Positions 54,580 to 55,865 of a stretch of 64,000 nucleotides of DNA are shown here, piece after piece. The DNA lies in contig NZ_AP018549.1 of the NCBI RefSeq assembly GCF_003584685.1, forward strand, positions 186,001 through 250,000, read 5' to 3'. The DNA comes from Lactobacillus paragasseri (GTDB lineage: Bacteria > Bacillota > Bacilli > Lactobacillales > Lactobacillaceae). The translations under genes were made by a program, and so were the position numbers. Each line of letters begins with the position of its first letter. The stretch's first letter is position 1. Under the pieces are notes generated by a model that was given only the letters and a program-made list of their open reading frames with translations, ran no database searches and was not told the DNA's origin.

Positions 54580-54788
54580 AACTGTTAGGTGAGACTCCTA
54601 CGTGAACATATGCTGTCGCCCAGCAACATCCAGAGATGCCAACGGGTCAAACAGGGATCGTCGATATAAGGCCCTCCCCAGCCAGCTAGTTATGTTAAAT
54701 AACCTTACGTCACGTAGTGTTAAAACTGAACGACGAGTATAAAAATCGCTTGGATTTGAGCCGATGCAGTTTTTGCATCGGTCTTTTT
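54580..54788 (+). ncRNA. M-box magnesium riboswitch
   Basis: The aptamer core matches the M-box (ykoK) class: GTTAGGTGAGACTCCTA (54584-54600), GCTGTCGCCCAGCAACATC, GATGCCAACGGGTCAAACAG and GATATAAGGCC. The expression platform ends in a perfect 8-bp terminator CCGATGCA/TGCATCGG (54761-54781) with a T-rich tail. High Mg2+ should favour termination. It lies upstream of a half-length MgtA-like gene, which matches the usual target family. The ~308-bp gap between genes is almost wholly this element. Confidence 0.9.
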
Positions 54789-54824
54789 GTTTGTTTGCTA
54801 GGTTCTTAAGAAAGGATGTTGAAG

Positions 54825-55814
54825 ATGTTCAAAATCAACACTTCCGGCACAAGAAATACTACAGACACCAAGCTGGTGCGCCGGATTGCATGCGAAGATA
54901 AGTTTGCGACGCTGCAACGATTAAAAACCTCAATTAGCGGCCTTCAAAGTAAAGATGCGAGGCAACGCTTAGCAAAATACGGATCTAATGAAATAATAAT
55001 TAAACATGATAAGACAAAACTTCACTATTTGTTAAAGGCTTTTATAACTCCTTTTTCCCTTGTTCTGCTTTTTTTAGCAATTGTAGCAATTTTTTTAAAT
55101 TCCTCTCAACATACTCTTAACCTAAGTCCAGCAATTTTTGTTTTAGCAATTTTATTTATTTCAGCCATTTTAACTGCTATGCAAAATATTCGTATTAATA
55201 CTAATATTCAAAATTTGATAAATCGAATTTCTAGAACAACTCAAGTAATGCGTGATTGTGAACCACAGCAACTTTTAACCCGTGATCTAACAATTGGAGA
55301 TGTGGTACTACTTAAAGCTGGAGATATTGTTCCAGCTGACGTTAAATTACTGAAAAGTAATGATTTAGAGTGCTCATTACTTGGTGAAGAAGACACTGTG
55401 AAAAAGAGTGCTACTAATTACACTGGTAAAAATAATAACTTAGATTATGCTAATATTTTATATGCAGGCACAATTATTCTTTCAGGTTCAGGCATTGGCG
55501 TTATCTTTGCGACTGGTAAAGAAACTGTTTTTGGAAAGGTAGTTCAAAATCTTTCTAAGATTAATCTAGAGAACCATCTCTTTAATTCTAGTATGAAAAA
55601 ATTAACCAAAATCTTTTTAACATTAATTCTAGTTATTGTTCCAGTTGTTTTGCTAATTAATGAAATAATGCGCGGTAATTGGGAGAATGCTTTAATTTTT
55701 GCTGTAGCAATTACTATTGGCATAACGGCTGAGGTAATGCCAACAGCTATTGTAAATAACTTGGTAAAAGCCAATATCGATATGCCTAGGATTCGAGCGA
55801 CATATGACAATTAA
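54825..55814 (+). CDS. Half-length MgtA-like P-type ATPase (no P or N domain)
   Basis: 329 residues matching only the N-terminal half of Mg2+-importing P3B ATPases: N-terminal GLQSKDARQRLAKYGSNEI, membrane helices 1-2 (~65-125), actuator domain (~130-240) with GDVVLLKAGDIVPADVKLLK, and helices 3-4 (~260-310). It stops before the phosphorylation motif DKTGT. The actuator TGES reads LGEE, and the helix-4 PEMLP motif reads AEVMP. It cannot pump by itself. A terminator follows 18 bp later, so it looks like a settled short gene rather than a fresh break. The start is the second ATG (54825), after AAAGGA. Confidence 0.85.
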   Translation: MFKINTSGTRNTTDTKLVRRIACEDKFATLQRLKTSISGLQSKDARQRLAKYGSNEIIIKHDKTKLHYLLKAFITPFSLVLLFLAIVAIFLNSSQHTLNLSPAIFVLAILFISAILTAMQNIRINTNIQNLINRISRTTQVMRDCEPQQLLTRDLTIGDVVLLKAGDIVPADVKLLKSNDLECSLLGEEDTVKKSATNYTGKNNNLDYANILYAGTIILSGSGIGVIFATGKETVFGKVVQNLSKINLENHLFNSSMKKLTKIFLTLILVIVPVVLLINEIMRGNWENALIFAVAITIGITAEVMPTAIVNNLVKANIDMPRIRATYDN

Positions 55815-55831
55815 TTATCTAAATAATTTAT

Positions 55832-55865
55832 AGGAATTCCGTATTTTATAGAATTCCTTTTTTTA
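55832..55865 (+). terminator. Terminator of the half MgtA gene
   Basis: A perfect 8-bp stem AGGAATTC/GAATTCCT with an 11-nt loop, then T7. Confidence 0.88.

Follow-up and report, generated by a model that had tools for sequence, protein, structure and literature searches.

The window analysed here, a stretch of 64,000 nucleotides from Lactobacillus paragasseri, carries upstream of metG a short gene that encodes only the front part of the Mg2+ P-type ATPase MgtA and is preceded by an M-box riboswitch. To judge from its codon substitution patterns, this gene is almost certainly real and kept by selection, fast-evolving yet non-neutral. Its most conserved part is the cytoplasmic N-tail and its least conserved parts are the membrane helices, the reverse of the order in canonical MgtA. 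We regard it as an evenly balanced proposition that the product is an M-box-controlled, non-pumping MgtA derivative, which would be induced by Mg2+ starvation and act by cytoplasmic contacts of its membrane-anchored N-tail and A domain.

Results

An M-box precedes a gene for the N-terminal part of MgtA

The features of the locus are listed in Table 1. The riboswitch aptamer agrees with the M-box family in sequence and structure (RF00380, E 2.5e-30, gathering score 44), and the hairpin behind it is a putative terminator-type expression platform. This hairpin is kept with small changes in the eight aligned genomes that carry the short gene (short-form genomes), across which the ribosome site GAAAGG is identical. 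In all 12 short-form genomes, the broken copy of G008 counted, the M-box lies 63-71 nt 5' of the first matched codon. M-boxes were found in 73 of 75 Lactobacillus genomes. One in G068 (L102; G068:C10, 340-507) is an orphan: the first downstream frames of at least 100 codons are on the opposite strand, and the 3.5 kb examined hold no ATPase; it may be what is left of a second mgtA that has disappeared.

Table 1. Features of the short mgtA-like locus in the window
Feature	Position	Strand	Basis and remarks
M-box (ykoK) Mg2+ riboswitch aptamer, RF00380	54574..54745	+	135.4 bits, all 169 model positions
Intrinsic terminator, riboswitch expression platform (putative)	54760..54782	+	10-pair stem, loop of 3, T run CTTTTTG
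Shine-Dalgarno-like GAAAGG	54810..54815	+	9 nt 5' of ATG 54825; read from sequence
Short MgtA-like ORF, 329 aa (N-tail, M1-M2, A domain, M3-M4)	54825..55814	+	Pfam, TIGR01524 and structure-chain matches, hydropathy
Terminator 3' of the short ORF	55832..55864	+	AGGAATTC, 11-nt loop, GAATTCCT, T stretch; perfect 8-bp inverted repeat
metG (presumably methionyl-tRNA synthetase, named from its sequence)	55935..57911	+	ORF list; locus marker across the genus

The mechanical ORF list starts the frame at ATG 54816 (332 aa; stop TAA 55812-55814). GAAAGG abuts this ATG and precedes ATG 54825 by 9 nt, which makes the latter the better start; residue and codon numbers in the region, window and dN analyses are nevertheless counted from ATG 54816. 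Behind the gene, 17 nt past the stop, all eight positions of the terminator stem (55832-55839/55851-55858) are paired, and a T stretch runs to 55864; with its 11-nt loop, this terminator was not listed by the terminator scan, which had a loop limit of 8. In G059, G023, and G021, as judged by eye, the short gene ends in a TAG that touches or runs into the terminator stem.

Pfam detected only the Cation_ATPase_N and E1-E2_ATPase domains in the short protein. The TIGR01524 (MgtA) profile matched over positions 20-319 of 867 with 184.2 bits, indicating homology to the N-terminal third of MgtA at a score under the curated cut-off of 610.75. Solved L. lactis MgtA chains matched residues 25-327 or 29-327 (9zlk chain, E 1e-42, 25-327), and hydropathy of the G000 protein, G000 being the genome of the window, showed transmembrane-like segments at the expected places of M1-M4 and a further, weaker peak within the A domain.

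The short form thus resembles MgtA, solved for L. lactis and E. coli, in the sequence and order of N-tail, M1-M2, A domain, and M3-M4 and in the M-box control found in this genus, but it lacks the P and N domains, M5-M10, the DKTGT and GDGxND motifs, and the Mg2+ site on M5, M7, and M8. DKTGT is missing along with its domains in all 11 intact short forms. The TGES dephosphorylation loop of the A domain, which reads NGES in 20 of 20 canonical MgtA rows of the genus, is altered in all 11 (LGEE, DEDN, NEGS, TGQN, or TGQA); in G000 it is LGEE beside a three-residue gap, and PEMLP has become AEVMP. An acidic residue at the Glu of PEMLP is kept in 10 of 11 short forms and replaced by Gly in G014, and the scaffold landmarks of the A domain (GD, VPAD, GxGxG, FG) are invariant across the 11. 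Without N and P domains and without M5, M7, and M8, there is no ATP binding, phosphorylation, or MgtA Mg2+ site, so the protein should not pump. A sequence-only reading of the window had described the well-kept M-box with its terminator, the 329-residue frame of helices 1-4 and actuator domain, the absence of DKTGT, the LGEE and AEVMP replacements, and the clean terminator after the stop, and had suggested a pseudo-ATPase; profiles and alignment bear out this description.

The short form is one clade at the metG locus

We surveyed 75 Lactobacillus genomes, including G000 (one contig, 1.94 Mb, 99.96% complete). An intact short form was present in 11 of them, always upstream of metG; a further copy in G008 is broken by two TAA codons, so the gene is dispensable somewhere. 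Relative to G000, the short forms fall at 91-100% identity (G000, G014, G069, G071), 57-59% (G023, G024, G059, G070, G021), and 43-45% (G067, G018). By coordinates, metG lies directly 3' of all 11 intact copies and about 3 kb off in G008. Genes that we take to be trpS, comEB-like, TPM-like, metG, tatD, and rnmV were found in all eight regions examined around intact short copies; their order was established for the window, G067, and G018.

Each of 26 metG-linked regions of other species, among them G058, where the genes lie at contig ends and the link to metG is likely, carried a full-length frame of 888-951 codons. Among 301 Lactobacillaceae genomes drawn, nine of other genera had a match at 1e-45; their frames have 885-910 codons, and none is a short form. 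A contig pattern scan, whose patterns reach close relatives only, found four loci, all in Lactobacillus. A full-length ATPase at this position, which the sequence-only reading would have taken in close relatives as a sign of pseudogene decay, occurs only in more distant species; the nearest relatives in the tree are short.

In trees with MgtA of other genera as the outgroup, from which, as from the alignments, L074 (G045, runs of N) and L090 (G074, no frame by pattern) were excluded, the intact short forms were one clade (100/98). Its sister (97/90) comprised the full-length metG-linked proteins of G038, G043, and G044. The broken G008 copy grouped in the short clade with weaker support (88/91) and a long branch. 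Within the clade, the branches that lead to the subclades measure 0.24 to 0.76 changes per site, a length that indicates fast evolution after the cut. Full-length genes at the metG locus also end, by eye, in similar A+T-rich hairpins with T runs. Since like hairpins follow both the short and the full-length genes before metG, the simplest origin would be a full-length, M-box-controlled, metG-linked mgtA cut by one internal deletion after M4 that spared the terminator.

Full-length MgtA and other possible partners

A search for a full-length MgtA in the same proteome, proposed in the sequence-only reading, found one: G000 encodes a 918-codon frame, 43% identical to the short protein and at 991 bits over the TIGR01524 cut-off, with an M-box of its own. 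A second MgtA match is present in 8 of the 11 short-form genomes, and among species with an eroded full-length gene at metG (groups B and C, described below) in 6 of 9 and 2 of 6, respectively, giving 16 of 26 in total; the eight of these 16 that were checked for motifs were all canonical. No MgtA over the cut-off was found in G021 (one contig, 100% complete), G018 (99%), or G070 (71%), all of which carry the short form and its M-box. Substitutions assigned to the G021 and G018 branches gave ratios of 0.145 and 0.09, indicating purifying selection, although these rough values come from single-difference codons with a distant outgroup, and mgtA could have been lost only recently.

We think it unlikely that the short protein is a dedicated partner of a full-length MgtA in the same cell, with which it would heteromerise or compete for regulators (MgtR-like peptides, FtsH) and so tune uptake. 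Both proteins would be made together in G000, where each gene has an M-box, and the human SERCA1 truncation S1T offers a precedent in that, according to an excerpt of the literature on it, it homodimerises and lowers SERCA activity (PMC5672155). Yet G021 and G018 have a selected short form and no such MgtA, and the less complete G070 lacks it too; the E. coli dimer interface, in the part of the structure report covered, lies in the N and P subdomains, which are absent from the short form (PMC10925321); and the membrane helices, the expected place of contact with MgtR-like peptides, show the lowest conservation. Occurrence with MgtA is not constant, as it would be for a regulatory subunit. The earlier suggestion that the short protein binds or regulates full MgtA thus finds a candidate partner in G000 but fails as a general role: an MgtA partner is possible in most species and is not the whole story.

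MgtE, another Mg2+ route or partner, had no match in any of 10 genomes searched. CorA matched in all 10, which makes it a possible partner; the CorA match of G014 (G014:C1:10264-11124) has an internal TAA.

Purifying selection on the short gene

Pairwise NG86 dN/dS was 0.117 (G000-G014), 0.168 (G000-G071), 0.181 (G014-G071), 0.165 (G059-G021, dS 0.81), and 0.126 (G067-G018, dS 0.82), and three very close pairs with few changes gave 0.170, 0.283, and 0.381. Maximum-likelihood codon models estimated omega at 0.139 for a gasseri-like set, 0.111 for a johnsonii-like set, 0.055 for G067, G018, and G021, 0.136 for a fifth set, and 0.108 for ten short forms. The corresponding part of canonical MgtA gave 0.022, in a fit with an implausible kappa of 40. 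Because the null model with omega fixed at 1 (2dlnL at least 100) had a hand-set kappa and was not strictly nested, the case for selection rests on the estimates instead. In neutral simulations at 0.40-0.45 substitutions per site, frames acquired 12.5-13.4 stops on average and none of 200 stayed open. At small, G000-like distances, 1.5% and 0.5% of neutral frames remained open, so dN/dS is the stronger evidence there.

Between subclades, dN/dS rose to 0.28-0.43, above trpS, comEB, metG, tatD, and rnmV (0.15 at most); the upstream TPM-like gene is similarly fast at longer distances (0.30-0.52 where dS is finite). Together with the long stem branches, these values indicate that constraint was weak for a time. 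They also lend something, as does the broken G008 copy, to the view of the gene as a fixed relic, cut by a deletion and decaying slowly, its open frame owed to chance or residual constraint. We nevertheless judge a relic improbable: dN/dS is 0.12-0.18 in the five informative pairs of three subclades, the G021 and G018 branches are under purifying selection, there are no stops where 12-13 are expected, and the M-box is kept in 12 of 12 copies, as are the riboswitch terminator and ribosome site in the eight aligned genomes. An outright pseudogene is ruled out by dN/dS, the neutral simulation, and the intact signals, a dN/dS near 1 and stops or frameshifts running through the relatives not being observed. 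The sequence-only reading had inclined to a frame kept by selection, and here it was right; the fixed decay product that it offered as its alternative, to be recognised by random breakage at a dN/dS near 1, does not match 11 of 12 open copies with a within-subclade dN/dS of 0.117-0.381.

Exchange between species may have left traces at the locus. The short gene (54816-55814) has a dS of 0.28 between G000 and G071, against 0.67-1.65 for its neighbours, and so seems to have been exchanged. The same seems true of metG, which is 98% identical between G000 and G018 (dS 0.49), next to a tatD with a dS of 1.7.

Constraint is inverted relative to canonical MgtA

Region-wise dN was compared between subclades, where synonymous sites are at or near saturation (pS 0.52-0.76). 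In five pairs of short forms it was 0.31-0.39 for residues 4-72, 0.67-0.81 for M1-M2, 0.49-0.52 for the A domain, and 0.55-0.73 for M3-M4; six canonical MgtA pairs gave 0.50-0.75, 0.15-0.35, 0.21-0.26, and 0.08-0.22 for the same regions. Conservation in the short forms is highest in the cytoplasmic N-tail and lowest in the helices; in canonical MgtA the order is the reverse. In the TGES loop, mean identity was 26% among the three short subclades versus 64-70% in two canonical triples; the A-domain flanks kept 56-57%.

Selection for ion movement should keep the helices, and the short form keeps the cytoplasmic N-terminal part instead. This bears on another idea, which we hold to be quite improbable: that Mg2+ crosses the membrane through the short protein itself, its M1-M4 building a small oligomeric channel or a leak. 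Transmembrane-like segments at the places of M1-M4, M-box control, the acidic residue at the PEMLP Glu in 10 of 11 short forms, and the report, in the excerpt covered, of truncated SERCA1 as a leak channel (PMC5672155) all accord with a channel. The helices, however, evolve fastest (dN 0.55-0.81), the acidic residue is Gly in G014, and the Mg2+ site of MgtA lies in M5/M7/M8, according to the part of the report covered (PMC13174805).

Low synonymous divergence at the 5' end

Within clades, dS of codons 1-60 was about threefold or more lower than in other windows, and the same held for canonical mgtA (L040) of G000- and G059-type genomes. N-terminal conservation between close species may therefore be partly a DNA-level effect or due to recombination; in the between-subclade comparison of G000 with G067, dS of codons 1-60 was saturated. 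Between G000 and G059 or G021, identity was 85-98% from -240 to +180, 72-90% from -900 to -300, and 47-80% in the later ORF. The first 180 nt of the ORF folded no better than shuffles (z -0.32 and 0.03), which, with the low dS common to the canonical gene, speaks against an RNA structure at the ORF start. The low dS next to the M-box (window positions 54574-54995) might reflect RNA-level constraint or M-box-anchored recombination.

These patterns, and an M. tuberculosis M-box known, from the excerpt covered, to control a small upstream ORF (PMC12810186), could be taken to mean that selection acts on the 5' end, with the M-box leader and first 60 codons working as an RNA or regulatory peptide and the rest passive. 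This is very improbable, given unremarkable folding, a low dS shared with canonical mgtA of the same species, and an omega of at most 0.33 in all later codon windows of the five informative within-subclade pairs.

Hardly tenable is a split pump in which another gene supplies the missing P and N domains and M5-M10: the cut coincides with a domain border, but the A-domain loop that would act on the P domain is gone, and for G000 the idea is largely refuted, since none of its 20 MgtA-profile matches (E <= 1e-5) is an orphan C-terminal half, all C-half matches lying in 630-937-codon frames that also match the N half and the short gene standing apart.

Discussion

A possible role for a non-pumping MgtA derivative

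The anatomy of the short form, its relationship to MgtA, the selection on it, its inverted constraint, and its occurrence in two genomes that lack a full MgtA are read from the sequences themselves. For the M-box-controlled, non-pumping derivative that we propose, we consider the following course of events the most likely. Falling cytoplasmic Mg2+ should, as in other members of this riboswitch family, permit transcription through the M-box. The product would be expressed and inserted as a four-helix membrane protein carrying the MgtA N-tail and an A domain without its catalytic loop. With the cytoplasmic N-terminal segment most constrained and the A-domain scaffold next, the helices look like an anchor, and protein-protein (or protein-lipid) contact at the inner membrane face might modulate how active or how stable another transporter or membrane protein is.

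Among kinases and proteases, relatives that have lost catalytic activity are familiar. In the portions of the open-access literature covered, we found neither a selection-kept pseudoenzyme among bacterial P-type ATPases nor a truncated or catalytically dead bacterial MgtA. MgtS, MgtR, and related regulators of MgtA are, in the excerpts covered, likewise membrane proteins without ATPase domains in a context of Mg2+ starvation (PMC10925321, PMC13174805), but they have fewer than 50 residues, whereas the short form has 329 and appears to derive from MgtA itself. S1T is also a stress-induced, truncated, non-pumping P-type ATPase; it differs in being a human splice variant and not a separate gene, and it is described, in the part of the source covered, as a Ca2+ leak and SERCA inhibitor (PMC5672155).

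In the part covered of the structural work on E. coli MgtA, it is left undecided whether N-termini of this kind hinder or promote transport (PMC10925321). The short gene is a natural construct reduced to the N-tail, M1-M4, and A domain, and its N-terminal segment is the most conserved part. With it, M-boxes would also control a product that is not expected to transport in the ordinary manner.

Eroded full-length relatives at metG

The inverted constraint and a set of eroded full-length relatives go beyond what the sequence-only reading had noted. In 15 other species, the metG-linked MgtA-like gene is full-length and altered in TGES, in GDGxND, and in one to three of the six Mg2+-site residues. 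They form group B (nine species: G004, G072, G027, G013, G003, G029, G005, G068, G010) and group C (six: G020, G016, G042, G073, G036, G058). All 20 canonical rows of the genus keep NGES, DKTGT, GDGIND, and the six ligands on M5/M7/M8, which were taken from the part covered of the MgtA report (PMC13174805) and mapped by alignment.

Group B has NGNS, DGDS, DGDP, or DSDS at the TGES site, GDGNKD or GNGNKD at the GDGxND site, and three of six ligands changed; it keeps DKTGT and so may still hydrolyse ATP. Group C has DGEF, NGDF, DGKF, or DGDY and GDKIND, GDRIND, or GDKSND at these sites, with one to three of six ligands changed, and its phosphorylation site is DKTGI in four species, EKTGF in G073, and DKTGT in G036, which for both groups together makes DKTGT in 10 of 15, DKTGI in 4, and EKTGF in 1. 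The M7 Asp is retained in all 15, and part of group C may still bind Mg2+.

Selection is evident in both groups, with dN/dS of 0.025-0.048 in group B (seven finite values among the eight pairs listed) and 0.068-0.138 in group C (eight pairs listed). In three pairs of group C and one of B, conservation is found in the N-tail (dN 0.21-0.26), with helix values that reach or exceed the canonical range (M1-M2 0.29-0.41, M3-M4 0.21-0.40). The groups were sisters at 92/79 in one tree and unresolved in two others. They share with the short form the metG locus, the M-box, an altered TGES, and the conserved N-tail, but differ from it in their frames of 888-920 codons, their P and N domains, and a DKTGT-like site, and they are a separate lineage. 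Since the short clade stands apart from B and C, there were at least two losses.

It is tempting to speculate, although we put this a little short of an even chance, that the metG-linked, M-box-controlled mgtA became a Mg2+-starvation-induced pseudo-pump at least twice, once by reduction to the N-tail, M1-M4, and A domain in the short clade and once, in groups B and C, by changes to the catalytic and ion-site residues of full-length proteins. Function would have moved from the membrane site towards the cytoplasmic N-terminal segment, and these proteins would together make up a family of pseudoenzymes among bacterial P-type ATPases, with signalling or regulatory roles in Mg2+ homeostasis. The group B and C proteins deserve a study of their own, above all that of G073 with its EKTGF site.
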